DNA of 64,000 nucleotides from Amylibacter marinus (GTDB lineage Bacteria > Pseudomonadota > Alphaproteobacteria > Rhodobacterales > Rhodobacteraceae), in NCBI RefSeq assembly GCF_030160015.1, contig NZ_BSNN01000008.1, positions 186,001 through 250,000 on the forward strand, written 5' to 3'. Below, in pieces: positions 39,372 through 57,242 of this stretch. Numbering within the stretch: position 1 is the first letter of the stretch; the number at the start of each line of letters is the position of its first letter. The translations under genes were made by a program, and so were the position numbers. The notes under the pieces were generated by a model. It was given only the letters and a program-made list of their open reading frames with translations. It made no database searches and was not told the origin of the DNA.

Positions 39372-39439
39372 CTAAGGCAGTTGTCGGTCATCCTGTTAAA
39401 TTCGTCAAGCATTTTCTAAAAATATGTTACTCTTGCTGA

Positions 39440-39455: not shown

Positions 39456-39539
39456 TACACTATATATCTGTACACAGCAACGTATGCGTTAGCCTGAACC
39501 CTTTCGCGGCCAATTGCACCACCACATAGGAGTAGTAAC

Positions 39540-41159: not shown

Positions 41160-41280
41160 CACTTGGCACCTAAATCCAGAATTCACATATGGGCCGAGCT
41201 CATCTACACCAAGGAAACGGGATGTTGTCTACGCTCGTTAATATGCAACACAAACCTATGGTCACCAAAGGAGAACTTTC

Positions 41281-42097: not shown

Positions 42098-42510
42098 TGA
42101 CCTGCGCCTCTAAAATTCCCCCAAAATGATGCAGAGTCTGCCCAAGCAAAGGACAAACCTATGAAGAGGCGATTTACCGACGAACAGATAATATCAATCT
42201 TGAAGGAACAGGAGGTTGGTGAGCGGACTGCAGACCTATGCAGAAGGCACAGGACCAGCGAGGCGACGTTATACAAGTCCAAGGCCAAGTGCGGCGGAAT
42301 AGAGCCATCCGATGCGCGCAAACTGAAGGCGCTGGAAAGCTGTAACGCCAGACCGCGTGATGAATTGCTGAATGGAGAAATATGCTACACACTCAAAGAA
42401 GCGCAGATCATCATTGAAAATGGAGGAATCTCTACAACACAGAAAGCCCCCACAGCGCACTGGGATACAAACCATCAGCGCCAAAAAGCATCATGCTAGA
42501 CCAAAGGCCG
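42098..42510 (+). mobile_element. Internally deleted IS3-family element (OrfA-OrfB fusion)
   Basis: The left end begins TGACCTGCGCC (42098), a usual IS3/IS407-type terminus. An ATG at 42161 opens OrfA (MKRRFTDEQIISILKEQEVG, TADLCRRH) up to about residue 58. The frame then continues directly as the OrfB C-terminus: ESCNARPRDELLNGEICYTL, the region of the last catalytic Glu. The junction at about 42335 removes the rest of OrfA and the first two Asp residues of the DDE triad. One base is missing after 42418; in the corrected frame the end reads NWRNLYNTESPHSALGYKP. The element is inactive. No clean right inverted repeat is visible. Confidence 0.75.
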
Positions 42511-42633: not shown

Positions 42634-43329
42634 TCAGGTACGACTTTTCTCAAACTCCGTCCATGCAGCTTCAAATTTATCGAAGTCAAAGTTGGGTTCA
42701 GATGCGGGGCCAATAATAAGATGTTCAGTGGACAAAAGTTTTTCGATTGCGGCTTCCAATTTACCGATCACGTCACGCGGAACAACGACTGCGCCATGGC
42801 GATCTGCATGAACTAAATCACCTTCTTCAACGCATAGCCCAAACACATTTACAGGTGTGCCAATCTCACGGACATGAACAAACCCATGGCTAGGCCCAAT
42901 TGATCCTGCAACCACGGGAAACCCATCTGGCATATCGCCCAAGTCGCGCATCACACCATTCGTCAAGGTCCCTGCCATACCAAACCCTTTGTGGATTGTT
43001 GTATTAACCTCGCCCCAATAGGCACCAATACAATCGGGATAATCCACATCTTCGATCACAACAACTGACGGTGCTGGCGCCTCTGCCATGTACCTGTAAT
43101 AATCCATGCGTCTTTTTTTGATGACATCAGTCGGTTCGCTTGGCGGGTTAACAGCTGCAATTTTTGCAGTTCGCGCAAAGCCGACAATGGGCGGCTCGTC
43201 TGGCGCGCTGCATAACATCGTCCCACGGGTAAATGCGGAAAACCCGCGTTTACCTTGCGCAACTTCGATAGCATTGCAAACCGTCGGCGTGTCTACAGAT
43301 CTTAGTTTTTTAAGTAGGGATGGGGTCAT
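42634..43329 (-). CDS. RraA/HMG-aldolase-family protein
   Basis: A 231-residue member of the RraA-like family, which includes 4-hydroxy-4-methyl-2-oxoglutarate/oxaloacetate aldolases and keto-acid lyases. Features are SVDTPTVCNAIEVAQGKRG, GAYWGEVNTTIHKGFGMAGT and TNGVMRDLGDM with the R-D pair that binds metal and substrate. It is slightly longer than the bacterial RraA (about 160) because of N- and C-terminal extensions, as in catabolic members. It is the last gene of the long operon and overlaps the hydrolase gene (ATGA), so it may perform the final retro-aldol cleavage or decarboxylation. Confidence 0.82.
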   Translation of the reverse strand: MTPSLLKKLRSVDTPTVCNAIEVAQGKRGFSAFTRGTMLCSAPDEPPIVGFARTAKIAAVNPPSEPTDVIKKRRMDYYRYMAEAPAPSVVVIEDVDYPDCIGAYWGEVNTTIHKGFGMAGTLTNGVMRDLGDMPDGFPVVAGSIGPSHGFVHVREIGTPVNVFGLCVEEGDLVHADRHGAVVVPRDVIGKLEAAIEKLLSTEHLIIGPASEPNFDFDKFEAAWTEFEKSRT

Positions 43330-44009
43330 ACTGCCTCTAACCAGCTTCGCAATGCGGCTGTCGTTTGGGTTGGGTTTTCAAGTGTTGGCAAATGGGCCGC
43401 GTTTTCAATCAGTGTTAGTGTGGCGTTTGGAATAATGTTCGCCATCTCCTCGTGTCTTGATACTGGGCATAATTGGTCATACGCTCCGCACATGACTAAA
43501 ACCGGACAGGAGATCGCCGCTAACGTATCGCTTTGATCGCGTCGATCCATTAGGGCGTTGGACTGGTTGACAAATGCCTCCGCACCTAAATCCATCGCCA
43601 TGTCCATACAAATATCCAAAATACGTGATTTGTTTGGCCCATCTACCAAGTAGCGAGGTTTCATTTCTTCGCGCATTACCGCCGACAAGCGTCCCGTGTT
43701 GGCCGCCTCAATTTGCGGAGCCCGCGCCTGCTTCACCGCATCCAATTCCGCCCGGTGATTGGTATCCATCAATGCTAGGCGTCGAACGCGTTTAGGTGCC
43801 AATCGCATGATTTCCATGGCAATAATACCGCCCATGGACAATCCCGCTAAGTCAAACTGATCTGGTGCTTGTTGTAGAACATTTTGCGCCATATCCGTCA
43901 TACTATTCTCGCGGACGGGCGTATAAACAACAGTATCGTCAAAGGCTTCGATCTGTGGCGCAAACAATCGTTCATCGCACATCATTCCAGGCAACAAAAC
44001 CAACGTCAT
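43326..44009 (-). CDS. Alpha/beta-hydrolase
   Basis: A 227-residue hydrolase: LVLLPGMMCDERLFAPQI at the N-terminus (oxyanion region), the nucleophile elbow AGLSMGGIIAMEIM with Ser, CPVLVMCGAYDQLCPVSRHE with the acid Asp, and the catalytic His in IENAAHLPTLENP. It resembles 3-oxoadipate enol-lactonase and BioH-type carboxylesterases. It probably cleaves an ester, lactone or C-C bond in this pathway. It starts two bases after the MetE-like stop. Confidence 0.87.
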   Translation of the reverse strand: MTLVLLPGMMCDERLFAPQIEAFDDTVVYTPVRENSMTDMAQNVLQQAPDQFDLAGLSMGGIIAMEIMRLAPKRVRRLALMDTNHRAELDAVKQARAPQIEAANTGRLSAVMREEMKPRYLVDGPNKSRILDICMDMAMDLGAEAFVNQSNALMDRRDQSDTLAAISCPVLVMCGAYDQLCPVSRHEEMANIIPNATLTLIENAAHLPTLENPTQTTAALRSWLEAV

Positions 44010-44011
44010 AA

Positions 44012-45139
44012 TCAGCCACTCACCAGCGCCGCGCCATCAACAAGACTGGCCAATTTAGCATAGGCAATATCCGGATCAACCGCACCAAATCCGGCAAAGG
44101 TGCCAAATCCGCAATCTGATCCAGCAATAACACGATCCGCCCCGACAATCGAAACAAAGCGCTCAATGCGCTGCGCCACCAATTCCGGGTGTTCAACAAA
44201 GTTAGTTGTCGTATCAACCACACCTGGCACCAAAACTTTATTTTCTGGAATTTCTGATTTACGGTTTTGAAAGACCGTCCACTCATGCGCATGGCGAGGG
44301 TTGGATGTTTCGAATAACACATATTGCGGCTTGGCGGACATCAATGTCGAAAACACTGTATCCATCGGGATATCGCAACAATGCGGCCCCTCATAATTCC
44401 CCCAACAAATATGCAAACGTATTTTCTCGGCTGGAATGTTTTCCAATGCATGGTTTAACGCTTCAACATGCATTGCCGCGACTTTCAGAAACTCTGCATC
44501 ACTTAGATCGTTAAACAACATGTGCCGCGACAGTGCTAAATCTGGGCAGTCCAGTTGCAAATCTAACCCCGATGCAACAATCGTTTCATACTCATCCCGC
44601 ATGGCATCTGCCAAAGCCGCCAAATAAGCTTCGCGAGTTTTGTAAAAATCGTTTTGCAAAAACAATGAAATCACGCCCGGTGACGCCGCATTCATGAAAC
44701 CACGCGTAACACCGTGTTTCGCCATCCCAGCCTTTAGGTTGTCGATGTCCTTTTGCAATTCTCCTTGACCTTTGGATTTCACCTCGCCCGTACACATTGG
44801 TCGGGCATATTGCGGTGTTCCACCATCATCGGCCAATCGCTTTAGAAACCCGGGAAACATTTTTAGATCCTCTGGCGCATTGCGTTCACTGTCACCCGAA
44901 AATCCCGTGTAGCGATCCTTCACATAGGTCGCATAGGAAATTTTGGACGTCTCGCCATCACTCACAATATCAATACCAGCTTTCGCTTGTTTACCAACTG
45001 TGTCATCCACTGCCGCCGTCATCGTGGCATCAAAAGCGGCAGTGTCGTATTCTTTGCCATTTTCCCGCGCAAAAATAAAATCAACCACTTCTTGGCTGCG
45101 TGGCAGGCTACCCACATGTGAGGTTAGTATTTTTGTCAA
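44012..45139 (-). CDS. MetE-C-like protein (cobalamin-independent methionine synthase fold)
   Basis: The 375-residue protein has the C-terminal MetE/UROD barrel: SHVGSLPRSQEVVD at the start, DIVSDGETSKISYATYV, LQLDCPDLALSRHM, the zinc-ligand segment RLHICWGNYEGPHC and GSDCGFGTFAG. Zinc ligands (His, Cys and the later Cys) are present, so thiol alkyl transfer is possible. It lacks the N-terminal half of MetE, as do epoxyalkane:CoM transferases and the short methyltransferases. Here, in a catabolic operon, a role in C-S bond making/breaking or methyl transfer is likelier than methionine synthesis. Start is a TTG at 45139 with AAAGGGATAG upstream. Confidence 0.83.
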   Translation of the reverse strand: MTKILTSHVGSLPRSQEVVDFIFARENGKEYDTAAFDATMTAAVDDTVGKQAKAGIDIVSDGETSKISYATYVKDRYTGFSGDSERNAPEDLKMFPGFLKRLADDGGTPQYARPMCTGEVKSKGQGELQKDIDNLKAGMAKHGVTRGFMNAASPGVISLFLQNDFYKTREAYLAALADAMRDEYETIVASGLDLQLDCPDLALSRHMLFNDLSDAEFLKVAAMHVEALNHALENIPAEKIRLHICWGNYEGPHCCDIPMDTVFSTLMSAKPQYVLFETSNPRHAHEWTVFQNRKSEIPENKVLVPGVVDTTTNFVEHPELVAQRIERFVSIVGADRVIAGSDCGFGTFAGFGAVDPDIAYAKLASLVDGAALVSG

Positions 45140-45158
45140 TTTCTATCCCTTTCAAAAA

Positions 45159-46127
45159 CTACAGGTTTGTCCACGTCGGGCCGGCAGGGTCGTCATTCGA
45201 AATTATACGATAAAGGCTGGCTTCACCCGTCATTGAAGGTGCCAAGAGATGCTTGAAATTTGCCGGCAGCAAACATGTATCACCAGGGTTCAACGTGGCT
45301 GAGCCCCCTTCCCATTCAAGTTTCCAATGCCCCCGCACCGGCATCAGAACAACATTATCTTGGAATTCAATTTCTTCGCCTTTCAGCGAACCACGTGACA
45401 CGAAATCAATTTCAAATCCCGGTTTGTCACGCAGGATGCCATCTTCGGCGATAACTTTGGCAGGTGCATTTCGGGACAACCCCATCAAATCGAGGTACCT
45501 CGCGACATACTGTGGGATAACCTCGGTGGATGTTGGTTCTGGAATTCGTTCCAACAAATCCTCCGTTAAGGTTTTCATTGGCGCAACATTATCGGGTAGC
45601 TCCTGACCCTGTTTGGTGTCGTACAAACGCCCATTTTCACCCAGAACCAAACCGTGATCCGCCGCATCTTCAATCACCTGTGGGGCCCAGGTTACGCCGC
45701 CACCCGCATCATCACCGCCAAGAACTGCCATGATCATCCCATAGTCGGTGCCAATGTTCTCAAAACCGCGGAAAATTCCGGTTGGAATATTGAAAATATC
45801 ACCTTCTTCCAACGTCACCTCACCGGCTGTACCCCAACGTCCCCAGAAAAAACGCCATCTTCCCTTTAGAACAAAAAACACCTCGGCTGTTGTGTGAGTA
45901 TGCAATGAATTTCTACACTTTGGTGGCTGGCCGGCGGCGCCGATGTTAAACCCTGGCGTGTCACGAATGTGAACATGTTGATCCGCGCTTTCGCTGACAC
46001 CGCCACCAATAATCGTAAAGTTTTCTTTTTGATCGCTTCCAGGCGTGTGTGCATCAATGAATGCGGTTTTACATGGCATCAATTCGCCATATCTTACGAT
46101 GCGTGCTTCCATTTCTGTCGGTGTCAT
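45159..46127 (-). CDS. Bicupin protein
   Basis: A 322-residue protein with two cupin domains. The first has CRNSLHTHTTAEVFFVLKG with two His and Glu ligands and EEGDIFNIPTGIFRGFENI. The second (about 235-315) has VVLMPVRGHWKLEWEGG and LNPGDTCLLPANFKHLLAPS, with fewer obvious ligands. It resembles gentisate dioxygenase-type or acireductone-type bicupins in plan, but ring-cleavage cannot be claimed. The start at 46127 lies 4 bp past the SnoaL-1 stop. It may be a metal-dependent oxygenase, isomerase or lyase. Confidence 0.8.
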   Translation of the reverse strand: MTPTEMEARIVRYGELMPCKTAFIDAHTPGSDQKENFTIIGGGVSESADQHVHIRDTPGFNIGAAGQPPKCRNSLHTHTTAEVFFVLKGRWRFFWGRWGTAGEVTLEEGDIFNIPTGIFRGFENIGTDYGMIMAVLGGDDAGGGVTWAPQVIEDAADHGLVLGENGRLYDTKQGQELPDNVAPMKTLTEDLLERIPEPTSTEVIPQYVARYLDLMGLSRNAPAKVIAEDGILRDKPGFEIDFVSRGSLKGEEIEFQDNVVLMPVRGHWKLEWEGGSATLNPGDTCLLPANFKHLLAPSMTGEASLYRIISNDDPAGPTWTNL

Positions 46128-46131
46128 CACT

Positions 46132-47109
46132 CTATCCTGTGTGCATTGCGATTTGTTTCCAAATCGCGGTTTCGTCAAATAATGTATATTCGCGGCGAAT
46201 ACCCCAAGGGCCGAATTCGACATGGCTGATGCCCATCACGTGAACTTCCGCACCTGTTGGCTTGCCAAAATCGCCCCAACCTTCATGTTTACCTGTCAGG
46301 CTCCAGCGAATTGCGGCGCGTGGCGGCATCATTGGATCTTCACGTCCGATTTGGTGTTCTATTTTGAACTCTGCGGACGGGAATGATGACCGCAGTCCAA
46401 TCCAAAACTTGTCAACACCATCCGTTGATAGCAATTCATGGCCACCCGGATAAAATCCGGTCACAGCACGGTCGTATTCAGCGGGTATCACCCCTAAATC
46501 TGCACCCATAATGCGGTTCAAAACATCCGCGTATTTCTGCCCCCACACATTGTCATTTCCACGCCCCTTGTAGGGGCCTTCTTGATCCATGCGCGGGTGG
46601 AACGGCGCGCTACAATGTTCCGGCCCGCCTTCCTTTTCAATTAAATCAACAGCGTATTGTTTTGGATCCCACCCCATTTGGCGCACGATTGCACCTTGGT
46701 CTCGGATCAACCATTCGTCGTTGATTTGGTTATTGATCGCATGACAATCTGCGATGATGCGATACTGTAATTTTTTACCAGTCGCGGCGCCATAAACACC
46801 ATTTCCGGCGTGTGTGGCCGTTGACAAAATACGGTGCGACGACAGCATCCCCTCTTCAGGTGTACCAGACCATATCACATCCTCGCCCAACAGGCGGCGA
46901 TCTGGAAATTCGGCCAATGTCGCCATCGTTGCGGCAATAACACCCTTATTTCCAATCACGATGGATGATGGCGAACGCACGGGAATGTCGGGTGCGTAAT
47001 AGTGGTGCAATGTCGCCAAACCGCGATCTTCCCAAATCTCTTTGGTGATCCCGATTATGTAATCTGGGAAGTCGCTAAATTTTTCCGAGAAACCTTTCAT
47101 GTGTCCCAT
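46132..47109 (-). CDS. SnoaL-like double-domain protein 1
   Basis: A 325-residue protein with two cone-shaped (NTF2/SnoaL-like) domains. Domain 1 (about 10-150) includes IWEDRGLATLHHYYAPDIPV and GAATGKKLQYRIIADCHAIN. Domain 2 (about 205-322) has YDRAVTGFYPGGHELLSTDG and KPTGAEVHVMGISHVEFGPW. This fold serves as polyketide cyclase, ketosteroid isomerase, hydratase or dehydratase. It lies directly after the LacI regulator in the operon (13-bp overlap) and differs clearly from SnoaL-2 and -4. Function in the pathway unknown. Confidence 0.85.
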   Translation of the reverse strand: MGHMKGFSEKFSDFPDYIIGITKEIWEDRGLATLHHYYAPDIPVRSPSSIVIGNKGVIAATMATLAEFPDRRLLGEDVIWSGTPEEGMLSSHRILSTATHAGNGVYGAATGKKLQYRIIADCHAINNQINDEWLIRDQGAIVRQMGWDPKQYAVDLIEKEGGPEHCSAPFHPRMDQEGPYKGRGNDNVWGQKYADVLNRIMGADLGVIPAEYDRAVTGFYPGGHELLSTDGVDKFWIGLRSSFPSAEFKIEHQIGREDPMMPPRAAIRWSLTGKHEGWGDFGKPTGAEVHVMGISHVEFGPWGIRREYTLFDETAIWKQIAMHTG

Positions 47110-48116
47110 CCTTTTGGAATTTTGGCTGATCCGCGCACAATCAAAGGGCTTTCAACCTTGATATGGCGTGCAACAGATACAGGATTATCAATTTTCTCGA
47201 TGATCAGGCTTACCGTTTCTTCAACCATAACATTTGCCCTTTGGCGCACGGTCGTTAGATTATAAGCCTTCAATGCTGCGGGTGGCACATCATCATATCC
47301 CACAACGCTGACGTCTTCGGGAATTTTTAAGTTCAATTCGAACCGCAAAACATCCATCACCGCCAACGCCATGTGATCCGTTGCCACGAAAACCGCATCG
47401 GGGTGATTGCTCACTGAAAACATCTCACGGGCGACGTCTTGCGCCTTCTCAACAACAAAATCCCCCAGCCCATGCGCCGCCAAGGTATGACCTGCATCAT
47501 TCAAACCCGCACGAAACCCTGCTTCGCGGTCACGTTGTGTCGATGCCCCTTCCCAACCGCCTATATAGGCAATCCGATTGTGACCGCCTGCCACCAGAAA
47601 CTGCGCGACTACTTTGCTACCTGCGAAGTTATTAGAGGTGACGGCGGAATGCTCCGTTGTCTCTTGCGATCTGTTGAACAAGACCACTGGAACGCCAACC
47701 GCCTCGCAGCGTGCCGTCAACGTGCTGGAAATGCCAACGCTGGCTACGATAATTCCATCCACTTGATAATCTAACAATTCATCAATCACTGTCTCTGTGG
47801 ATTGAGTGTCGTTTGATGCCATGAAAACCAACACGTGATAACCCTGCGCCTGCAAGGCGTTGGATAACTTTTCCAAAGCAACAGGGTAAAAATAATTATC
47901 CAAATATGCGACAACCAAGCCGATGATCCGACTTTTCCCAGTGATTAAGGAACGCGCCAAAACGTTTGGCCGATACCCCAATTCCATCGCCGCTTCGCGC
48001 ACCTTTTGCACTGTTTTCGGGCTGGCTGATGCCCCGGGTGTAAACACGCGGCTCACCGCGGATTGGCTGACGCCGGCAAGTTTTGCAACTTGTGATGAAG
48101 TAACCTTCTCTTTCAT
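47097..48116 (-). CDS. LacI-family regulator
   Basis: A 339-residue LacI/GalR regulator: helix-turn-helix SSQVAKLAGVSQSAVSRVF, hinge LGYRPNVLARSLITGKSR and periplasmic-binding-like core (IIGLVVAYLDNYFYPVALE, DAVFVATDHMALAVMDVLR, VSVVGYDDVPPAALKAY). The start ATG at 48116 shares one base with the SDR stop. It is embedded in the middle of the operon it very likely controls. A TTGCATACGAATGCAA palindrome with a central CG stands in the divergent promoter at 56130-56145, as expected of a LacI-type operator. Confidence 0.92.
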   Translation of the reverse strand: MKEKVTSSQVAKLAGVSQSAVSRVFTPGASASPKTVQKVREAAMELGYRPNVLARSLITGKSRIIGLVVAYLDNYFYPVALEKLSNALQAQGYHVLVFMASNDTQSTETVIDELLDYQVDGIIVASVGISSTLTARCEAVGVPVVLFNRSQETTEHSAVTSNNFAGSKVVAQFLVAGGHNRIAYIGGWEGASTQRDREAGFRAGLNDAGHTLAAHGLGDFVVEKAQDVAREMFSVSNHPDAVFVATDHMALAVMDVLRFELNLKIPEDVSVVGYDDVPPAALKAYNLTTVRQRANVMVEETVSLIIEKIDNPVSVARHIKVESPLIVRGSAKIPKGWDT

Positions 48117-48874
48117 CAGCCTGCTGTCCAACCCCCATCAATAATCATATGCGTACCCGTCACCAAAGACGCCGCATCAGACGCAAGGTATAACGCCGCC
48201 GCCATCACGTCCTCGACCTCGCCAACACGATTAAGTTTGATTTTATCGTTGATCCACGCGGCCCGCTTCGGATCGTCCAACGTCGCCCGGGTCAAAGGCG
48301 TGCGAATGAATGTGGGGCAGATGGTATTGATCCTGATGCCCAATTCACCCCACTCAATCGCCATCGCCTTTACCATACCTTCAAGCGCATGCTTTGACGC
48401 GGAGTACACCGTACGATCAGTGCCGCCAACATGCCCCATTTGCGAAGACAGATGGATAATTGATCCTTGAACACCATTATCCTTCATCGCCGACGCCGCA
48501 AATTTCGACAGAAAATATGCAGACCGTAAATTAAGTGACATCACCGCATCGTAGTCTTCTGGCGTTGTTTCCAACGCGGGTTTATGCCGGCCCATACCCG
48601 CCGAATTGATAACAATATCAAACGGTTCACGCATGGCTGTTTCCAACTGATCCAAATTCGTTTGATCCAATTGTAACGCACTGGCATCCCAGCCTTGTTC
48701 CTGCATGTCATCCACGGTTTTGTTTAATGGTCCAGCCGTGCGCGCCGCGCATACTACAGATGCACCAGCTTCAGCCATCGCCACGGCACAGGCTCGTCCA
48801 ATCCCCGACGATGCACCGGTGATCAACGCACGTTTTCCCTTCAGCGAAAACGATGGTGTTTTAGGCAACATCAT
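48116..48874 (-). CDS. SDR oxidoreductase of the SnoaL/HisD cluster
   Basis: A 252-residue classical short-chain dehydrogenase: TGASSGIGRACAVAMAEAGA, NSAGMGRHKPALE, catalytic Ser in IHLSSQMGHVGG, YSASK and GTHMIIDGGWTAG. The start may be the ATG at 48874 or 48871, both overlapping the SnoaL-2 stop (ATGATG). It likely oxidises a secondary alcohol or reduces a ketone intermediate. It is not closely similar to the KduD-like enzyme at 30 kb. Confidence 0.88.
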   Translation of the reverse strand: MMLPKTPSFSLKGKRALITGASSGIGRACAVAMAEAGASVVCAARTAGPLNKTVDDMQEQGWDASALQLDQTNLDQLETAMREPFDIVINSAGMGRHKPALETTPEDYDAVMSLNLRSAYFLSKFAASAMKDNGVQGSIIHLSSQMGHVGGTDRTVYSASKHALEGMVKAMAIEWGELGIRINTICPTFIRTPLTRATLDDPKRAAWINDKIKLNRVGEVEDVMAAALYLASDAASLVTGTHMIIDGGWTAG

Positions 48875-49905
48875 ACACATCCTTCTTGTAAAACAGGCGC
48901 CGTATTCCTTGCCATATTGAATGCCCGCAATCTGGCAAACACATCGACACCCAACTGATGGTAAACATCTAAAAGATCAACCAAAACCCAGTTTTCGCGA
49001 ATTTTCCCATTCTCCAACCGCCAGAAATCCAACGACCGCAAAGAAATCTTTTGATTATTTGGAACAATCCCTAACCAACCGTCACCTGTTAGGGTTTGCA
49101 CCATGTCTGGCCACCCAGTAACGGCAACATATTCTCCTTCGCCAAAAAAATGAGGCGCGATTTCATCTGGGAATTGCCCACGGTCGGGCATCGCATTTAA
49201 AAACGGAATTTGATGCCATTTGCGAAACCCTTCAATCCCGCGTGCCGTGCCGATCCCCGCTGGGCCATACCAATTCATTTTTGGATGCCAGAACTTTTCC
49301 AATTCCATTGCTTCGACTGGTTCAACGGGATGCCTGATCAAGGCCGTCAACATGTCCAAAACATGTTGAACACTTGCATCGGTTTTGCAGAGATCGTGAT
49401 CGGTTAAACCATCTTGGGTCATCGGTGCGGGTGTTGCCCATTCGCGCCCTAAACTGGGTGCCATTGGCCAGGCATTCGCCTGCATCATCAATTCGGGGAT
49501 ATCCCAAATCGCTTGGACCTCTACGATCTTGCCGTTTTCAATCATGAAAAACTCGTGAAACCGCATATGTGCCAAATGGCCCGTTGGTGGGATGTCCAAA
49601 AACGATGCTTTAAAGGTGCCAACATAACTGCCACAGTAGCCAATCCAATCACGGCCCTCTGGTGTTTGACCGGCCACAACAATTGTATCGCGACACTCGA
49701 CGTCGGGCATCGCCTGAACCAGCGGTGCAAAACAAGTGTCATAAAAATTATCCGCCCCTAAATCACCAAACGGATGGCACATGTGCACAACGGCATTTGG
49801 ATCCATGAGCGCGCCCAAGCGTTCGCGTACAATCGCCCCATCAAAATCCCGCAACGCCGCGCGAAGCGGCGCAATCATGTGCTTATGGTTGGTTGGGTTT
49901 GACAT
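48871..49905 (-). CDS. SnoaL-like double-domain protein 2
   Basis: A 344-residue protein made of two SnoaL-like domains. Domain 1 (about 10-145): RERLGALMDPNAVVHMCHPF, then PPTGHLAHMRFHEFFMIENG. Domain 2 (about 185-335): FWHPKMNWYGPAGIGTARGI and ISLRSLDFWRLENGKIRENW. The signature W-Y/W-GPAGIG in domain 2 is shared with SnoaL-4 (56256-57242), so these two are paralogs. The ATG immediately follows the HisD-like stop. A hydratase/isomerase-like role on a sugar-derived or polyketide-like intermediate is possible; unproven. Confidence 0.85.
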   Translation of the reverse strand: MSNPTNHKHMIAPLRAALRDFDGAIVRERLGALMDPNAVVHMCHPFGDLGADNFYDTCFAPLVQAMPDVECRDTIVVAGQTPEGRDWIGYCGSYVGTFKASFLDIPPTGHLAHMRFHEFFMIENGKIVEVQAIWDIPELMMQANAWPMAPSLGREWATPAPMTQDGLTDHDLCKTDASVQHVLDMLTALIRHPVEPVEAMELEKFWHPKMNWYGPAGIGTARGIEGFRKWHQIPFLNAMPDRGQFPDEIAPHFFGEGEYVAVTGWPDMVQTLTGDGWLGIVPNNQKISLRSLDFWRLENGKIRENWVLVDLLDVYHQLGVDVFARLRAFNMARNTAPVLQEGCV

Positions 49906-51234
49906 CTATTCTGTGGGTTCACGGTGCGGGGCGCCTGTGCCATATGGCACGTTAATCCCACCATAGCGACGTACGCGAATATTGCATTGCTCTGCATGCC
50001 CAACAAAACCTTCTAGCATGCACAATCGGCTACCATATTCCCCAACCAAGGTTGCGGCCTCATCCGTTGTAATTTTTTGATATGAATGCGTTTTTAGGAA
50101 TTTTCCAACCCACAAACCACCGGTGTAACGACCTGCTTTCTTGGTGGGCAATGTATGGTTGGTTCCGATTACTTTATCCCCATTAGAAACATTGGTGCGC
50201 GCACCCAAAAACAATGCACCATAACAGGTCATTTTTTCCAAAAACCAATCATCTCGGTCCGTCATAACCTGTACATGTTCGGACGCAATATCATCTGCAA
50301 CCTGCAACATTTCATCGTAGGTATCGCACAGGATCACTTCGCCATAATCCGCCCAACTGACGGATGCTGTATCTGCCGTTGGCAGAATTTTCAAAATACG
50401 CTCGATTTCGCTTAATGTGTCTTCGGCCAGCTTTTTAGAATTGGTCAACAAAACCGCGGGGCTGTTGTACCCATGTTCGGCTTGGCCCAGCAAATCTGTG
50501 GCACATAATTCACCATCCACAGTGTCATCCGCAATCACCATGGTTTCTGTCGGCCCCGCAAACAGATCAATACCCACACGCCCAAACAATTGACGTTTGG
50601 CCTCGGCCACAAATGCATTGCCTGGCCCAACTAGCATATGCACGGGTTCCAGTGTTTCCGTTCCAATTGCCATCGCGCCAACGGCCTGAATGCCGCCCAA
50701 TACGTAAATTTCATGCGCACCGCCCAAATGCATGGCCGCAATCACCGCCGCATTAGGCTTTCCTTGGAATGGCGGCGTGCAGGCAACAATGCGCGGCACC
50801 CCCGCTACGGACGCCGTCGCCACGGACATATGCGCGGATGCAACCATCGGGAATTTACCACCCGGCACATAGCACCCCACAGATTGCACGGGGATATTCT
50901 TATGGCCCAAGATCACCCCAGGCATTGTTTCTACTTCAATGTCCAACATGCTATCGCGCTGGGCTTGGGCAAAATTGCGAACCTGTTCTTGGGCGAACTT
51001 GATATCTGCCAATTCGCGTGGCGTCAGGCTGGCGATCAAATCGGAAATTTCCTGTTCCGTCAGTTTGAATGATTTTGGTGAGTAGCCGTCAAACTTTTCC
51101 GACAACTCGCGTACGGCCACATCTCCGCGTTGCTCTATATCTTTCAAAGTGCTTTCAACAACCGCTTTCGTTTTCGCATCGTCCTCTGCGCGTTCTGTAT
51201 CGGGTTTGCCGTGTTTAAGATATGTAATCGCCAT
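49906..51234 (-). CDS. Histidinol dehydrogenase-family oxidoreductase (HpsN-like)
   Basis: A 442-residue HisD-family NAD enzyme with conserved residues: zinc ligands in [13 protein letters not shown] (Gln, His), the acid/base pair in ASEHVQVM, Asp in [16 protein letters not shown] and His in EGFVGHAEQ. HisD-family enzymes oxidise a primary alcohol to an acid in two steps. The catabolic context, far from his biosynthesis genes, and the form of the C-terminal third resemble HpsN, the sulfopropanediol dehydrogenase of roseobacters. Whether the substrate is a sulfonate is open; no HpsO/P, HpsKLM or sulfo-lyase gene is seen here. Ribosome site AGGATTAAAG. Confidence 0.88.
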
Positions 51235-51242
51235 CTTTAATC

Positions 51243-51776
51243 CTAATCGCTCTTCGGTTTGGGCGGTGTCTTTTCGCCCTTGTCATATGCTTCCCATCCG
51301 TGACCGTTGAAAACATCAACACCCAGTTGGGCCAATACATGCGGGAAATCGACCATCACCCAATTGTCCACAATCTTGCCGTCAACAACTTTCCAAAAGT
51401 CCATGTATCGGATTTCAATTCTTTTGCCCGTAGGCTCGATCCCCATAAACAATCCATGATGGGTCGCTTCTTGGCGGCCAAAAGCGGCTGCCCATTCGCC
51501 CATGTAAAGACGGGCCTCATCAACGCAAACCTTGTCACCAAACGCCGCCTGAAAAGGCTTTTGCCAATTGTCCTGAAATTCACGCACCCCCTGTTTGGTG
51601 CCACAGCCTCTATTTCCCATCCAACGGAAGGTCTCGGAAAAGAAATCGCCAATGTCGGCAATGCGGTGATCGTTCAATCCATCAACCATGCCTTCGATAA
51701 CCGCCCGTGTTTGCGCGGTTTTCGCCATATCTGTATCGCGTGACAGAACCGCCTGCTCAGGTCTTGAACCCCTCAT
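51243..51776 (-). CDS. SnoaL-like single-domain protein 3
   Basis: One SnoaL domain in 177 residues: [20 protein letters not shown], then [20 protein letters not shown] and [20 protein letters not shown]. It matches the second halves of SnoaL-2 and SnoaL-4 in the DxW-V-x-V/IDLL(H) ending. The ATG at 51776 overlaps the permease stop (ATGA), but an internal ATG at 51728 gives a more typical N-terminus ([13 protein letters not shown]). It separates the transporter genes from the enzymes. Confidence 0.85.
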
Positions 51777-52657
51777 CCTTTTACCGCTCCTGCAGTTAGG
51801 CCAGAAACAATCTGGCGTTGGAAAAACATAACTAAAACAAATAATGGGGCCGTTGCGGATACAACCGCCGCAACCGCAAACATCACATTTCCTTCGGTTT
51901 GTGTGGTGCCCAAAAACGCCGCGATTGCGGGGACCATGGTGCGGTTCTCTTCGCTCAGCAACAAGGCGCCAACCACGAAATCATTATAGGCCAACAAAAA
52001 GCTGAACAAACCTGTCGTAATCACACCCGGCCACATGACGGGGATAATAACATGGCGAAATGCTTGGAACTGTGTACAGCCATCGACCTTTGCGCTTTCG
52101 TCCAACTCTTTTGGAATTTTCTGGAAGAAACTGTGCAACATCCATAAGGTAAATGGCTGATTAATCGCCACCAGAACAACAATCGTCGTGGGCAAATAGC
52201 CCCACAGGTTCCATTGAAAGAACGGTAACAAATACCCAGAGACCAAGGTGATTGGCGGCATCGCGCGGAACATCAACGCGGCAATCAACAGCCAGAAAGT
52301 ATAGCGGTAATTGGAACGCGACAACGCGTATCCCCCCAAGGTTCCCATGGTCAGCGACAAACAAACCACACAGAAACATACAACCGCGGTATTTATTACT
52401 GCGCGCCAAAATTCTTGCTCTATCCACGCGCCATGATACGCGGTTGTGGTTGTGGTCGTTCCGTAGGCACGTTCGGTATTCGCACCCGTCAACGCATTCG
52501 TCCAATCCGCAATGGAAAAGAAATCCAATTCAACTTTAAAACTACCCCAAAGTGTCCACAAAAATGGGAAAGCGGCCAATATTAACCAGAAAACTACAAA
52601 CGCATTCGCGGCAATACGAAGACCCTTTGGGCGACGCTGGGCGGAAACTGAGGACAT
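51773..52657 (-). CDS. Maltose-type sugar ABC permease 2 (MalG family)
   Basis: A 294-residue CUT1 permease with about six helices. Typical MalG elements are NTAVVCFCVVCLSLTMGTLG, YALSRSNYR, the EAA loop ELDESAKVDGCTQFQAFRHV, IPVMWPGVITTGLFSFLLAY and VAAFLGT-type ending (VPAIAAFLGTTQTEG). Start at 52657 has AGGAGAAAACCTA upstream and shares a base with the stop of permease 1. Confidence 0.92.
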   Translation of the reverse strand: MSSVSAQRRPKGLRIAANAFVVFWLILAAFPFLWTLWGSFKVELDFFSIADWTNALTGANTERAYGTTTTTTAYHGAWIEQEFWRAVINTAVVCFCVVCLSLTMGTLGGYALSRSNYRYTFWLLIAALMFRAMPPITLVSGYLLPFFQWNLWGYLPTTIVVLVAINQPFTLWMLHSFFQKIPKELDESAKVDGCTQFQAFRHVIIPVMWPGVITTGLFSFLLAYNDFVVGALLLSEENRTMVPAIAAFLGTTQTEGNVMFAVAAVVSATAPLFVLVMFFQRQIVSGLTAGAVKG

Positions 52658-53682
52658 TAGGTTTTCTCCTGAAAATCGCGCCACGTGCGTACCAGCACTG
52701 GGGATAACAATATGGCAACGCCAACCAGCGTCATCACAGATGTCGCCGCCGCCGAAGACAACAGTTGCGTTTCGCCACTTAAGTCATTCAAAATCATCCA
52801 CGACAGCGATGTCGCATGCGCCTCGGCATTAAAACCAATGATCTCTTCAAAGACGCGAAACTTATCCATCAGCTGGATCAAGGCAACGAAGGTCACCAGT
52901 GGCATGATATGTGGGATCACAACATAACGCACCTGCTCCCAGCGAGACGCACCGTCAATTTGCGCCGCTTCCATTTGATCTTGGGGCAATGTTTGTAAAC
53001 CTGCATAGAAAACCACGAATGCAAATGGCGCTGAATGCCAAATTCCATAAACAATAATCATAACCCACGTCAGGGGCGTCGATGCCTTCATCGATAAATC
53101 AGGATCATTTGCAAGGTATTGAATAAACGTCCCCAATACCCCGCGACTATCAACCATCCAGTACAACACCAGTGACCCAACCAACGGCGCAACAATCATT
53201 GGTAATAAGGAAAAGAAGATCACAACGCCCTTAAGGTGTCGGTTCAACGAATTCACCGCCAATGCTATGATAAATCCCAAAATAATCAGTAAAGGCACCG
53301 AAATGAATGTGAACGTAAGCGTAAACGTCATCGCGCGATAAAACGGCAGGTTATAAATACTTGAAAAGAATACGCCCATGGTTTCCGAACCACGCCACGC
53401 CGCACCAATTTCACCAAAGGCCAAATGTCCACGATCGGTAAAAATTTCTGTTCCCACAAATTTCCCCAGCGGTTCAGCGGCGCGCAAACTTGCCGTAGCT
53501 TCTTGATCAATTGTGGTTGCTTGCTTGCATCCAAATGGGCCGCAATTTTCCACCGTGATCAAAACTGCATCATGCGGGGTATACATTGATTGAATAACAA
53601 CTGACACAATCGGAAACGCAATGAATAACAACATCGCTAGTCCCGTAGGTAAGAAAAACCAAAAGAAGGTCTTATGTTTCAT
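52657..53682 (-). CDS. Maltose-type sugar ABC permease 1 (MalF family)
   Basis: A 341-residue CUT1 permease: FFLPTGLAMLLFIAFPIVS at the N-terminus, FTLTFTFISVPLLIILGFII, EAA loop DQMEAAQIDGASRWEQVRY and IPHIMPLVTFVALIQLMDKF. A periplasmic loop after helix 1 contains a Cys pair (ENCGPFGCKQ). It forms the channel with the MalG-type permease. It follows the binding protein after a stem-loop. Confidence 0.92.
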   Translation of the reverse strand: MKHKTFFWFFLPTGLAMLLFIAFPIVSVVIQSMYTPHDAVLITVENCGPFGCKQATTIDQEATASLRAAEPLGKFVGTEIFTDRGHLAFGEIGAAWRGSETMGVFFSSIYNLPFYRAMTFTLTFTFISVPLLIILGFIIALAVNSLNRHLKGVVIFFSLLPMIVAPLVGSLVLYWMVDSRGVLGTFIQYLANDPDLSMKASTPLTWVMIIVYGIWHSAPFAFVVFYAGLQTLPQDQMEAAQIDGASRWEQVRYVVIPHIMPLVTFVALIQLMDKFRVFEEIIGFNAEAHATSLSWMILNDLSGETQLLSSAAATSVMTLVGVAILLSPVLVRTWRDFQEKT

Positions 53683-53703
53683 GTTTTCAATCCAGTAAAG
53701 TGG

Positions 53704-53731
53704 TTCAGGGGAAGGTTATCCTCCCCCTGAA
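53704..53731 (-). terminator. Stem-loop between binding-protein and permease genes (CUT1 system)
   Basis: TTCAGGGGAAGG and CCTCCCCCTGAA make a 12-bp stem with one mismatch around TTAT. It sits in the 58-bp gap after the binding-protein stop. No U-run follows. It parallels the hairpins in the other four importer operons. Confidence 0.6.
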
Positions 53732-53740
53732 ATGGGTTTC

Positions 53741-54970
53741 TTAGTTCAAGAAACCTTTTTCTTTTGCCGCGGCAGTGTACGCCGCTTCTGTATCTGCCAA
53801 TGCTTGTTCCGCAGACTCTTTGCCCAACATAAAGTCGGACAATTCCGCACCCAATGCTGTGTGCAACAAACCTTGGTACGGTACCATCGGATAAGGTGTA
53901 GAACCCGCGCTCGCCGCATCAAACACACCAACAGCCGCTGGTGTTGGCTCGTATCCGTCAATCAACCAAACCGCTTGTTTTGCAACTTCTTCGTCGGCCA
54001 AAATTTCAGGACGAATTGCATTTGTTAGCGCGATAAATGTAGCTTCGGCTTCTGCATCGCTGATGTTTTTGGCAACAGTCCAACCGTCCCACCACAACGT
54101 CGTGGCCGGTGTGGAACCACCAGCAACTGTCATTGGGCCAGCGATTGCCATGCCGTTTTTCACTTCATCTGAAACGCCTTCGGCATCGCTCAATGTTGCC
54201 GCACGTGATCCCCACATGTTCATCAATGCAACGTTGCCCGCGCGGTATTCCGCGTTGGTCGCGTTTGAATCATGTGTCAAGAAATCTGGATTCATGTATT
54301 CAGACAATGATTTCATCATATTCAATGTCGCAACACCTTGCGCATTGTTGATGGATACTTCTGCTGAACCAGGCTTAAAGAATTCGCCACCATGACCAAT
54401 GTACATGTTGTTGAATTCTTGGGCCAAATTCCAACCCGCTTTGTAGGCACCGCCAACTGGGTTTTCCATGATACCCATTTCGCGAATTTTCTTGGCAGCT
54501 TCCAACATATCTTCATATGTTTTTGGTGCTTCTACGCCTGCTTTTTCCAAAACATCCGCACGGTAAACAAGGTGCTGCGCATTCGCCATAAAGGCAACGG
54601 CCATCACTTTGCCATTGATTGTAATCAACTGGTTCTTCTTCAAACCTGCGCCGTGTTTTGCAACCAGATCATCCAATGGACGAATGACATCTTCGTTCAT
54701 CAATGCAACGATAGAAGAGTTAGCAACAATCGCAGAAGTGTATTCTGCTGGATTCCCGGACATACCCGCCAAGTTGATTTTTTGGTGATCTGCAGTCAGG
54801 TTAGTCGATACTTCGCCACCCTTACATTCTTGTGCCGCCGCACCAACGGTTTGGATCGCGGGGAATTCATTCCCAACAATTGAAACACGTGCACCAATTT
54901 CACACGCATACGCGGATGTTGACGCCAAAAGCGACAAAGCACCAGCCACAGCTATCCTTTTGAAATACAT
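53741..54970 (-). CDS. Sugar ABC binding protein (CUT1, extracellular family 1)
   Basis: A 409-residue periplasmic receptor with Sec signal (MYFKRIAVAGALSLLASTSA, cleavage before CEIG). The family-1 pattern includes FPAIQTVGAAAQECKGGEV, VYRADVLEKAGVEAPKTYED, ALMNMWGSRAATLSDAEG and ATTLWWDGWTVAKNISDAEA. The start at 54970 follows GGGAGA; a frame extension to 55132 has no signal-peptide character and overlaps the ATPase gene. Predicted to bind a carbohydrate, polyol or similar hydroxylated compound; ligand unknown. Confidence 0.92.
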   Translation of the reverse strand: MYFKRIAVAGALSLLASTSAYACEIGARVSIVGNEFPAIQTVGAAAQECKGGEVSTNLTADHQKINLAGMSGNPAEYTSAIVANSSIVALMNEDVIRPLDDLVAKHGAGLKKNQLITINGKVMAVAFMANAQHLVYRADVLEKAGVEAPKTYEDMLEAAKKIREMGIMENPVGGAYKAGWNLAQEFNNMYIGHGGEFFKPGSAEVSINNAQGVATLNMMKSLSEYMNPDFLTHDSNATNAEYRAGNVALMNMWGSRAATLSDAEGVSDEVKNGMAIAGPMTVAGGSTPATTLWWDGWTVAKNISDAEAEATFIALTNAIRPEILADEEVAKQAVWLIDGYEPTPAAVGVFDAASAGSTPYPMVPYQGLLHTALGAELSDFMLGKESAEQALADTEAAYTAAAKEKGFLN

Positions 54971-55049
54971 ATATTTTCTCCCTGTTGTGATGAATGCATC
55001 TTCGAATAATGCACCCATGCTGTTGACCCAATTGAAGGGTATGCGGGGG

Positions 55050-56099
55050 TTACCCCCCAATTCGCGCACCTGTTTGTGCATCAAACATATGGCAAATCTC
55101 TTTGGGCACAGAAATGCGAACCATGTCGCCAATTTCTGCGCGGTAATCTTTTGCGGCTTTCACGGATACCAATTCACCGTTGACCTTGACTGTAATCATG
55201 GTCGCATCGCCCAACAATTCCATGGTATAAACAGGCGCTTGTATTTGCCCGCCCTTCTCCACAATAGCGGCATCCTCAGCACGAAACCCAAGGGTTACAG
55301 GGCCATCAGGCAAATCAAGTCCGCTGACGCTAATTGTATCGCCAGAAAACGCTTTCTTGGTGACTTCGCCGTTTATCAAATTCATCGCGGGTGATCCAAT
55401 AAAGCTGGCAACAAACGCATTTGCGGGTGTGTCGTAAATCTCTGTTGGGCTGCCCACTTGTTGAACAATGCCCCCCTTCATCACCACAACACGATCGGCC
55501 AATGTCATCGCTTCGATCTGATCGTGCGTTACGTAGATTGTGGTCACTTTCAATTCATGGCTCAGATTTTTGATCTGTGCACGTGTTGAAACACGCAACT
55601 TCGCATCCAGATTGGACAATGGTTCATCCATCAAAAACACATTCGGTTCGCGCACAATCGCACGCGCCAGCGCAACACGTTGCCGCTGACCACCGGATAA
55701 TTCTGCGGGTTTACGATGTAAAAAATCGTCCAACTCCACCATCGCAGAGGCACGCATCACACGCTCTTCATGCTCTGCTTCAGGTACCTTGCGGACTTTC
55801 AATGGAAAGCGAATATTCTCATATACGTTCATATTCGGGTACAATGCGTAAGATTGGAAAACCATCGAAACATCGCGGTCTTTGGGTTCAAGGTCGTTGA
55901 TAACCTTCCCATCGACCAAGATCTCGCCATCGGTCACATCTTCCAGCCCCGCAATCATGCGCATGGTTGTGGTTTTGCCACATCCTGACGGGCCTAACAG
56001 CACCAAAAACTCTTGATCAGCAATTGTCAGGTTAAAATCCTGAACCCCAACAAAAGAACCCCATCGCTTCGACAGATTGCGTAATTCAATCTCGGACAT
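55050..56099 (-). CDS. Sugar ABC ATPase (MalK/UgpC family)
   Basis: A 349-residue CUT1 ATPase: Walker A GPSGCGKTTTMR, Q-loop VFQSYALYPNMNVYENI, signature [16 protein letters not shown], Walker B FLMDEPLSNLDAKL, switch YVTHDQIEAMTLADR and a C-terminal TOBE/MOP-like domain (about 240-345). It is the first gene of the long operon; the promoter contains the LacI-type operator at 56130-56145, 31 bp before its ATG. Confidence 0.94.
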   Translation of the reverse strand: MSEIELRNLSKRWGSFVGVQDFNLTIADQEFLVLLGPSGCGKTTTMRMIAGLEDVTDGEILVDGKVINDLEPKDRDVSMVFQSYALYPNMNVYENIRFPLKVRKVPEAEHEERVMRASAMVELDDFLHRKPAELSGGQRQRVALARAIVREPNVFLMDEPLSNLDAKLRVSTRAQIKNLSHELKVTTIYVTHDQIEAMTLADRVVVMKGGIVQQVGSPTEIYDTPANAFVASFIGSPAMNLINGEVTKKAFSGDTISVSGLDLPDGPVTLGFRAEDAAIVEKGGQIQAPVYTMELLGDATMITVKVNGELVSVKAAKDYRAEIGDMVRISVPKEICHMFDAQTGARIGG

Positions 56100-56129
56100 T
56101 CATTTCCCCCTGTTGGCGCAATCGCATTC

Positions 56130-56145
56130 TTGCATACGAATGCAA
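56130..56145. promoter_or_regulatory. LacI-type operator TTGCATACGAATGCAA
   Basis: TTGCAT and ATGCAA are perfect 6-bp arms around ACGA, with the central CG usual for LacI/GalR operators. It stands in the 156-bp divergent promoter between the MalK-type gene and SnoaL-4, so one site can control both directions. The LacI regulator at 47097 is the obvious ligand. Confidence 0.65.
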
Positions 56146-56255
56146 AACCATAGACTCCAACCACGGATTAGTGCAAGATTTTTTTAACAGGCGGAATATT
56201 TCGCCCAAATCGCACACACCACAATGTCGTAAAGACTATAAAAACAAGGGCCCCC

Positions 56256-57242
56256 ATGTCTGGATTTCAAACCGAAAAAAATCTAATCCGCACCTATTAC
56301 ACCGCATTGGATAAGGCCACTGACCAGGGAATCACCCAAGTCCTGCGGGACTTCACAGCCCCGCAATACACGTGGCGCGCCTACCATCCGTTTCATGTGC
56401 AAACTGATGTGGCCGAAATCTCCGCCACTTTTTGGCAACCGTTCCGCCATGCGATCACCTCCATGCAACGCCGCATTGACGTATTCTTTGCAGGCGACAA
56501 TGTGATAGATGGCGGTCAATCAACATGGGTGGTTTCGATGGGCCATCTTATGGGATTGTTTGATCACCCCTGGCTTGGCATTCAGCCAACAGGTAAAATG
56601 GTGATGCTGCGCTACGCGGAATTTCACAAAGTTGAAGATAACAAAATCACCGAAACCGCATTCTACTTCGACATCCCACACCTGATGGCACAGGCGGGAC
56701 AATCCCCGTTTGCCGATCAACGCGGCGCACACAACATTCAACCAGGACCGCAACCACATGACGCAGTGATGTATGATGACGCGGATCTCTCAGAGGGCCG
56801 CAAAACCATCGATGCAATCCATGCGATGATTACAGATCTTGGAACATGGCAAAGTGGCCTCCCAATCGAGGAAGAGCTGGCCCGCACTTGGAGCAAAGAC
56901 ATGATTTGGTGGGGGCCTGCTGGAATTGGTTCAACCTACACAATCGAAAGATATGCAAAACAACATGCCATCCCATTTCGCGCGGCATTCACCGACCGAT
57001 CCTCAACGGGTCACATCGCCCGCTTGGCCGAAGGCCAGTACGGTGGCTTCTTTGGTTGGCCAAATTTTACTGCCCGCCCCACAAATGGGTACCTCGGCCT
57101 GCCGCCCAGCGATAGGTTGTGCGAGTTCCGCGTGATTGACCTTTATAGACGAGAAAATGACAAGCTTGCTGAAAATTGGGTATTCATCGATCTACTGCAC
57201 TTCTTCAGCCAAATGGGCGTAAACCTGTTGGACGAGAGTTAA
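56256..57242 (+). CDS. SnoaL-like double-domain protein 4
   Basis: A 328-residue two-domain SnoaL-like protein, divergent from the main operon. Domain 1 (about 10-150): YTWRAYHPFHVQTDVAEISA and IQPTGKMVMLRYAEFHKVED. Domain 2 (about 190-325): IWWGPAGIGSTYTIERYAKQ and LAENWVFIDLLHFFSQMGVN. The GPAGIG signature links it to SnoaL-2. Its separate transcription from the shared LacI-controlled promoter suggests a different required dose, or a first enzymatic step. Confidence 0.85.
   Translation: MSGFQTEKNLIRTYYTALDKATDQGITQVLRDFTAPQYTWRAYHPFHVQTDVAEISATFWQPFRHAITSMQRRIDVFFAGDNVIDGGQSTWVVSMGHLMGLFDHPWLGIQPTGKMVMLRYAEFHKVEDNKITETAFYFDIPHLMAQAGQSPFADQRGAHNIQPGPQPHDAVMYDDADLSEGRKTIDAIHAMITDLGTWQSGLPIEEELARTWSKDMIWWGPAGIGSTYTIERYAKQHAIPFRAAFTDRSSTGHIARLAEGQYGGFFGWPNFTARPTNGYLGLPPSDRLCEFRVIDLYRRENDKLAENWVFIDLLHFFSQMGVNLLDES

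Follow-up and report, generated by a model that had tools for sequence, protein, structure and literature searches.

A conserved fifteen-gene cluster in Amylibacter marinus and other Rhodobacteraceae, tentatively assigned to the catabolism of mycosporine-like amino acids

We analyzed a 64,000-nucleotide stretch of the Amylibacter marinus genome (contig NZ_BSNN01000008.1, positions 186,001 to 250,000; hereafter, the window, located on contig C8 of the 2.72-Mb genome) and found that a cluster of 15 genes within it, at window positions 42634-57242, is a real, conserved and widespread unit. The cluster encodes a CUT1 importer, four SnoaL-fold proteins, a HisD-superfamily dehydrogenase, a short-chain dehydrogenase/reductase (SDR), a bicupin, a MetE-like protein, an alpha/beta hydrolase, an RraA-family protein and a LacI-family regulator. 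We propose, with a probability of roughly 37%, that it is a LacI-regulated accessory operon for the catabolism of mycosporine-like amino acids (MAAs) or of close mycosporine or gadusol relatives, with the substrate, the reactions and their order all predicted. MAAs and gadusols are ultraviolet sunscreens of algae, corals and fungi.

A profile search of the window proteins recovered all 15 open reading frames (ORFs) at the coordinates and with the families assigned by a first-pass annotation made from the sequence alone. Fourteen genes lie on the minus strand, from a MalK-type ATPase (55050-56099) to the RraA-family gene (42634-43329), and one, encoding the SnoaL protein Sno2c (56256-57242, plus strand), is divergent. 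From the RraA-family gene to both permease genes, neighboring genes are separated by -28 to +19 bases, taking the cupin gene to start at 46127; larger gaps are found between permease and solute-binding protein (SBP; 58 bases) and between SBP and ATPase (79 bases). The GC content is 49.5% in the cluster vs 50.6% in the remaining window.

The cluster is conserved well outside A. marinus. We examined the loci of the best 80 of 122 confirmed relatives of the SnoaL protein Sno2b from named genomes, 52 of which are at least 20 kb in length (long loci). A CUT1 SBP or permease is encoded in 68 of the 80 loci and in 50 of the 52 long ones, and the corresponding counts are 75 and 48 for the SnoaL protein Sno2a, 67 and 44 for both HisD and LacI, 60 and 44 for the SnoaL protein Sno1, 60 and 42 for the cupin, 60 and 41 for the SDR, 57 and 45 for Sno2c, 50 and 37 for the MetE-like protein, 43 and 33 for the alpha/beta hydrolase, and 42 and 32 for RraA. 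In 22 of the long loci, all 14 genes lie on one strand, and in 19 of these 22 they follow the exact order seen in the window; the clustering is thus beyond chance. This linkage supports the earlier view of a single catabolic unit that has a dedicated importer, dehydrogenases and an aldolase-family enzyme, and the pattern considered damaging to that view, enzymes rarely linked to the transporter, was not found. Judging by record names, the hosts are mostly Rhodobacteraceae, but also include SAR116, SAR324, Oceanospirillaceae, PS1, Thiotrichaceae, Phyllobacteriaceae and others.

Among 394 genomes of the family to which A. marinus belongs, counted without regard to relatedness among them, 138 carry Sno2b (E up to 1e-60), 192 HisD (E up to 1e-150) and 164 the cupin (E up to 1e-70). 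The three markers travel together: HisD is present in 133 of the 138 Sno2b genomes and in 159 of the 164 cupin genomes, Sno2b and the cupin co-occur in 133 genomes, and all three are found in 129. Because the only other genome listed for the same genus (G120) has none of the three, the cluster is best described as an accessory trait. A 77-kb plasmid of Paracoccus alcaliphilus (L083) carries the cluster minus MetE, close to a relaxase gene.

The genes of the cluster also seem to be jointly regulated. In the relative loci, the region separating the divergent ATPase and Sno2c genes repeatedly contains a LacI-type palindrome, TTGCATACGTATGCAA: at a threshold of at least 13 of 16 matches, it is found in 58 of the 80 loci, with 109 sites vs four for the reversed consensus over the 1.44 Mb covered, and our count from the site listing gives two sites 53-56 bases apart in 42 loci. 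The window has one site, TTGCATACGAATGCAA (56130-56145), in the divergent promoter region, which matches the conserved palindrome at 15 of 16 positions; no other site in the genome comes within one mismatch of the pattern. The putative ligand of both the window site and the recurring palindrome is the LacI-family regulator encoded in the cluster (47097-48131, minus strand; PF13377, 2.6e-29; PF00356, 1.5e-10). The same or a near operator accompanies clusters of Deinococcus, Priestia, Pantoea, Novosphingobium, Sinorhizobium, Martelella and Paracoccus, as well as a variant fed by a tripartite ATP-independent periplasmic (TRAP) transporter (L116), and was not found in stretches with this HisD but no cluster (L082, L085-L088, L090, L091, L093 and L094). 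No site at 13 of 16 was found in 22 of the 80 loci, many of them short, nor in the full-looking variants L122, L128 and L130. The second-nearest match in the window genome (C3:5740-5755) has two mismatches, and at the three-mismatch level there are 66 strand hits in all vs 24 for the reversed control, with palindromes counted on both strands; the same LacI may thus control further operons.

The CUT1 importer is complete, comprising the SBP (53741-54970; PF13416, 6.2e-19), two permeases (51773-52684, PF00528, 1.4e-18, and 52657-53682, PF00528, 4.9e-16) and the MalK-type ATPase with OB/TOBE domains (PF00005, 1.9e-34; PF17912 and PF08402), all on the minus strand. The SBP resembles sugar-binding proteins and is related to SmoF (E 6.2e-10); the architecture is that of the sulfoquinovosyl-glycerol importer (SmoF and partners), although no sulfoquinovose enzyme families occur among the 15 genes. 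Across the relative loci, the SBPs fall into groups with roughly 41-46, 48-63 and 70-80% identity to the window SBP, as if the importer had been exchanged while the enzymes stayed.

As the first-pass annotation stated, the cluster encodes four SnoaL-fold proteins. Sno1 (51243-51776, minus strand; PF07366, 1.5e-19) has one domain, and PF07366 matches two stretches each in Sno2a (46132-47109, minus strand; 8.5e-16), Sno2b (48871-49905, minus strand; 3.2e-24) and Sno2c (1.1e-18), giving about seven domains. The fold is SnoaL/NTF2 (PF07366/PF12680), as is also seen in a structural model of Sno2b (predicted local distance difference test (pLDDT) 84.3, predicted template modeling score (pTM) 0.86), for which the matches include polyketide cyclases and polyether epoxide hydrolases and, further down at ranks 40, 47 and 50, PhzA/B, an NTF2-fold enzyme that forms imines (C=N) on cyclohexenone rings. 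SnoaL proteins are chiefly known from polyketide pathways. In contrast to phenazine PhzA/B and the SnoaL polyketide cyclases, with which they share the NTF2 fold, the cluster proteins stand in a catabolic-looking operon and include tandem two-domain forms, and their chemistry is predicted.

The HisD-superfamily dehydrogenase (49906-51234, minus strand; PF00815, 4.6e-132) was correctly placed in its family at first pass; in the PDB, however, it is nearer to HpsN, the dehydrogenase of (R)-2,3-dihydroxypropane-1-sulfonate (DHPS; E 1.9e-116), than to histidinol dehydrogenases (6.2e-73 or weaker), and yet lacks the HpsN histidine. The available text of a study of HpsN describes His126 (motif residues 122-126) as recognizing the sulfonate and distinguishing DHPS from histidinol enzymes (PMC11382572). 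In our alignment to 8v35, this position is Met in the window protein (GKFPM vs GRYAH), and across 71 relatives it is Met in 66, Leu in three and unparsed in two, whereas the zinc ligands and the Glu318/His319/Asp352-type residues are kept, both in the alignment and as conserved columns. The protein passes the NCBIfam hisD model TIGR00069 (427.3 bits, cut-off 243.8), as do all three family genes of the genome, a model that does not separate the clades. One of the other two genes (L138) is of the histidinol type, with a GLASYPSS-type motif and a higher score on the same model (532.8 bits), and the second (L139; G000:C4:354634-355821) has the HpsN motif GRYAH, because of which the host may also degrade DHPS. 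Since His126 is lost, the catalytic residues are kept and L138 and L139 are separate genes, the window protein looks like a member of a third clade with its own substrate, neither a histidinol nor a DHPS dehydrogenase by motif, although it is as histidinol dehydrogenase that the clade is annotated in the database records examined. Beyond the cluster, a tblastn search (E up to 1e-100) found the clade in 177 plasmid records (identity of at least 60% in 122), in contexts that include TAXI-TRAP-HisD-SDR runs, HisD-pntAB-acs on pRL8, HisD with a CUT2-type transporter and HisD-GntP in Metabacillus.

For the bicupin (45159-46127, minus strand; PF07883, 1.1e-9), the ORF noted earlier is present, but its start at 46223, which gives an overlap of 92 bases with the neighboring gene, is probably wrong: since the alignment with most relatives begins only near residue 30, the ATG at 46127 is the more likely start. 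The structural model (pLDDT 82.6, pTM 0.83) has its best fold matches among quercetin dioxygenases (E 2.5e-14), such as the quercetin 2,3-dioxygenase/YxaG bicupins, and the HxH and Glu of the metal motif are invariant in 12 aligned sequences. Unlike in those enzymes, the last metal His (second motif) is an Arg, invariant in the same 12 sequences, and the Deinococcus and Priestia relatives are single-domain. The first-pass annotation assigned the cupin no step; as judged from its model, it is probably a dioxygenase that cleaves a ring or diketone. A PDB match to acireductone dioxygenase (E 0.074) is at chance level and was not used.

The MetE-like protein (44012-45139, minus strand; PF01717, 9.2e-13) has 375 amino acids and consists of the catalytic domain only, and all seven curated models listed for it score below cut-off. 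H243, C245 and C343, which we take to be the His-x-Cys and Cys zinc ligands of the MetE catalytic domain, are present in at least 97% of 50 sequences. In Croceicoccus and Novosphingobium, relatives with 51-53% identity are followed directly by a SnoaL/NTF2 gene, with a gene of the aminomethyltransferase family, MetF, PurU and FolD nearby; the Croceicoccus aminomethyltransferase-family gene passes the NCBIfam models DesA (839.9 vs a cut-off of 800) and LigM (619.9 vs 580). In the sphingomonad lignin loci L103 (9001-11271) and L104 (8004-10296), a small gene of the SnoaL/NTF2 type and then an IclR gene directly follow the MetE-like gene. Because MetE-like relatives stand in such O-demethylation loci, their neighborhoods point to, though they do not prove, a methyl group in the pathway. 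More distant relatives (36-40%) occur in haloarchaea and may be ordinary methionine synthases. A housekeeping role as methionine synthase is unlikely for the window gene, the sole PF01717 match in its genome, given that MetH-matching pieces lie elsewhere in the genome, although none of them reaches the cut-off for the whole protein. Separate genes (G000:C2:322224-323986 and C2:571036-571881) cover consecutive portions of the MetH model, as if the methionine synthase of the host were split.

Of the remaining enzymes, the alpha/beta hydrolase (43326-44009, minus strand; PF12697, 1.4e-11), proposed to act as an esterase after ring cleavage, has S58, D178 and H206 in at least 97% of 47 sequences. 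MetE-like protein and hydrolase are not strict alternatives, as among the 42 long cupin-bearing loci both are encoded in 24, MetE only in 10, the hydrolase only in six and neither in two. The RraA-family protein (minus strand; PF03737, 4.4e-17), proposed to be the final pyruvate-type aldolase, has R128, D129 and D132 in at least 97% of 43 sequences, in agreement with R-D-x2-(E/D), presumably the motif of the RraA/4-carboxy-4-hydroxy-2-oxoadipate (CHA) aldolase superfamily. This superfamily includes LigK, which splits CHA to pyruvate and oxaloacetate. The SDR (48116-48880, minus strand; PF13561, 2.5e-58) is nearest to KduD/glucose 1-dehydrogenase-type models, none over the cut-off among the 25 matches listed. 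Adjoining Sno2c in 32 of the 80 loci (e.g. L019:1373-2323, minus strand), there is an L-fuconolactonase-like gene of the Amidohydro_2 family, which has no match in the window genome.

Loci with a different composition suggest how the pathway is ordered. In Vibrio pelagius and in the roseobacter loci L036 and L044, importer and SnoaL genes form runs without the remaining enzymes, and a Roseibium run of TRAP, HisD, SDR, LacI, cupin, hydrolase and RraA genes has no SnoaL gene inside. Because runs of each kind occur separately, we tentatively distinguish a front module of importer and SnoaL genes from a back module of HisD, cupin, hydrolase and aldolase genes. The front module is probably separable, with SnoaL chemistry coming first, and not in mid-pathway as was originally proposed. 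A recurrent set of HisD, SDR, cupin, alpha/beta hydrolase, HpaI/GarL-like aldolase, LacI and SnoaL genes is also found in Deinococcus, Priestia (with the SDR annotated as glucose 1-dehydrogenase) and Pantoea; since HpaI/GarL-like aldolases (best models at 121-187 bits, each short of its cut-off) substitute for RraA in these distant clusters, aldol cleavage as the last step is supported.

Thirty of the 394 genomes carry HisD and the cupin but not Sno2b, and we examined 20 of these 30 variant loci. CUT1 genes are present in 19 and a SnoaL-family match in 15; L112, L120, L123 and L126 have CUT1 and no SnoaL match in the stretch. L116, with HisD, SDR and cupin, is the sole TRAP-fed variant without CUT1 at good identity, and weak TAXI-type matches occur in L125. 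An amidase and a second HisD clade, 45-47% identical to the window HisD, coincide in seven of the 20 loci, and neither occurs alone.

We infer that this enzyme kit calls for an importable substituted compound whose skeleton ends as a 4-hydroxy-2-oxo acid and which has bonds for several SnoaL enzymes, a methyl group, a CH2OH group with an adjacent oxygen, and a diketone or enediol on which the cupin could act. MAAs fit this profile, with a hydroxyl and a hydroxymethyl group at C5 of the core and a methoxy group at position 2. Gadusol is an enolized cyclohexane-1,3-dione, and 4-deoxygadusol is symmetrical, with enol and enolate forms, according to the available text of a published study (PMC4665425). 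Under the MAA scheme, the CUT1 importer would take up an amino-acid-substituted cyclohexenone or cyclohexenimine, and the SnoaL proteins would hydrolyze its C=N or enaminone bonds, freeing the amino acids and leaving a 4-deoxygadusol-type core. The HisD-superfamily enzyme is predicted to oxidize the C5 hydroxymethyl group to a carboxylate (four electrons; C8H10O6), and the cupin, with O2, would cleave the 1,3-diketone ring to the methyl ester of CHA (C8H10O8). The alpha/beta hydrolase would then remove the methyl ester (C7H8O8), and the RraA-family enzyme would yield pyruvate and oxaloacetate from the product. The methyl group might be handled by the MetE-like protein or, if the order of steps differs, be removed by it earlier. 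By hand calculation, the formulas balance (C8H10O6 + O2 = C8H10O8; hydrolysis to C7H8O8 = C3H4O3 + C4H4O5). The variants could be accommodated as well: a TRAP transporter would suit an enolate such as gadusolate, and the amidase with the second HisD clade would suit the fungal mycosporine-glutamine and mycosporine-glutaminol, both of which are named as existing compounds in the portion of the literature available.

Several observations weigh against MAA catabolism, to which the cluster is tied only tentatively, through gene content. The SDR has no role in the scheme, as 4-deoxygadusol lacks a secondary alcohol (gadusol has one), and neither does the Amidohydro_2 gene. A single methyl group would not require both MetE and the hydrolase, yet 24 of the 42 loci keep the two. 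At 61-84% identity, the HisD clade occurs outside the cluster next to TAXI-TRAP and SDR, pntAB/acs, or GntP and a CoA-acylating aldehyde dehydrogenase, and in 29 of the 394 genomes this HisD is present while Sno2b and the cupin are both missing; its substrate may be broader than, or different from, the MAA core. As to individual proteins, the SBP is sugar-like, the cupin has the Arg in its metal motif and its model also matches storage proteins and oxalate decarboxylases, and RraA scores 29.9 bits on the LigK equivalog model (cut-off 304.5). The modular order is also open to objection. L126 combines a CUT1 importer and the back module with no SnoaL match, and the expectation that genomes with HisD and cupin but without Sno2b would be TRAP-fed failed, with 19 of 20 keeping CUT1. 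Immediately upstream of the Roseibium TRAP run lies a group of CUT1, ester cyclase and amidase genes, and downstream of it a small NTF2 gene. Of the 138 Sno2b genomes, all but one have HisD, the cupin or both, which limits the front-module argument, and a weak relative of the cupin (35.8%) is encoded elsewhere on the Vibrio plasmid; the split-off importer and SnoaL loci may still require a back module.

Because the SDR, the overlap of MetE and hydrolase, the HisD contexts, L126, the Amidohydro_2 gene and the sugar-like SBP fit the MAA scheme poorly, a serious rival is a non-phosphorylative route for a methylated sugar or sugar acid, which we regard as unlikely, though well worth keeping in view. 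Here, the SDR would form a lactone or keto acid, the Amidohydro_2 protein or the hydrolase would open it, SnoaL proteins or the cupin would act as dehydratase or isomerase, HisD would oxidize a terminal CH2OH and an RraA-type aldolase would release pyruvate. Such a route employs the SDR, unlike the MAA scheme, and agrees with its closest models, with the CUT1 importer and its sugar-type SBP, with the lactonase-like neighbor of Sno2c and with the HpaI/GarL-like aldolases of the distant clusters. However, the 15 genes include no sugar kinase or recognized sugar-acid dehydratase, the lactonase-like gene has no counterpart in the window genome, the cupin fold is nearest to dioxygenases rather than isomerases, and TRAP-fed variants exist.

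Less likely again is another hydroxymethyl-bearing, methylated non-sugar ring compound, such as a cyclitol ether, a kojic-type pyranone or a different algal metabolite, degraded by the same module logic. The anatomy of the cluster would be explained equally, and modules swapped among importers and a HisD clade found in several contexts speak for this; on the other hand, no specific compound covers more genes than the MAA core, and none is indicated. Detoxification or modification of a secondary metabolite, instead of use as a growth substrate, is improbable: polyketide pathways are the best-known setting of SnoaL proteins and minimal importer-SnoaL runs occur, but an importer with a binding protein, regulation by LacI and a terminal enzyme of the aldolase family appear catabolic, and no efflux or resistance gene is among the 15.

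Catabolism of methoxylated aromatic (lignin-type) monomers is more improbable still. The sphingomonad loci for these compounds (DesA/LigM, LigAB, LigK) have the related MetE-like protein, there followed by a SnoaL/NTF2 gene, and L103 encodes LigK of the RraA superfamily; however, no LigM/DesA, VanA, P450 or LigAB family is found among the 15 genes, and a CUT1 importer and HisD are unexpected for such acids. The two sphingomonad stretches have no annotated CUT1, HisD or cupin. Finally, catabolism of DHPS or another sulfonate, for which HpsN as the best PDB match of HisD would speak, is set aside as very improbable, because the window HisD lacks His126 (Met or Leu in 69 of 71 relatives, two unparsed), the HpsN motif is found in L139, a separate gene of the same genome, and no sulfolactate lyase family is among the 15 genes. 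With the HpsN, HpsO/HpsP and SuyAB system the cluster shares the pairing of a HisD-superfamily zinc dehydrogenase, catalytic residues intact, with another alcohol dehydrogenase, and it differs from that system also in its CUT1 uptake and added SnoaL, cupin and aldolase genes. Thus, of the methylated or sulfur-containing substrate that the MetE-like protein had suggested at first pass, the methylated part is supported by the O-demethylation loci and the sulfonate part is not. The pantothenate/pantoate, apionate, deoxyribonate and homarine pathways, as generally known, have no need for SnoaL, cupin and aldolase together and were also set aside.

In agreement with the first-pass annotation, no described pathway with this gene set turned up in the open-access literature, of which the long result lists were covered in part. 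Titles and opening lines of abstracts there mention no genes for MAA breakdown, and bacterial conversion of MAAs has been reported with no responsible gene or enzyme named in the text available. If MAAs are the substrate, a named, widely distributed operon with a stepwise chemical prediction makes this conversion testable. It is possible, if doubtful, that the cluster represents the first complete bacterial MAA pathway, with CUT1 uptake, SnoaL imine/enaminone hydrolases, a HisD gadusol dehydrogenase, ring cleavage by the cupin and an RraA aldolase, marked in 138 of the 394 family genomes. Deinococcus, Priestia, Pantoea and rhizobia would then have a sister route, directed at fungal mycosporines and controlled through a related LacI operator. 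Catabolic operons fed by ATP-binding cassette transporters are a known type, and there is a minority chance that this one provides the first route for an entire natural-product class. Even with another substrate, an operon with its marker in 138 of 394 family genomes and distant versions in Deinococcota and Bacillota would be a carbon-turnover route still to be assigned.

Beyond the operon end, window positions 37880-41988 encode an aldehyde dehydrogenase, a GMC oxidoreductase and a GntR regulator. Of the genes flanking the cluster in the window, RidA, WYL and GntR are found in none of the 80 relative loci, GMC in six and aldehyde dehydrogenase in five. Just beyond the operon end, there is also an N-terminal transposase fragment (42161-42499, plus strand; HTH_Tnp_1, PF01527, 1.3e-14), which is consistent with horizontal gain of the operon.

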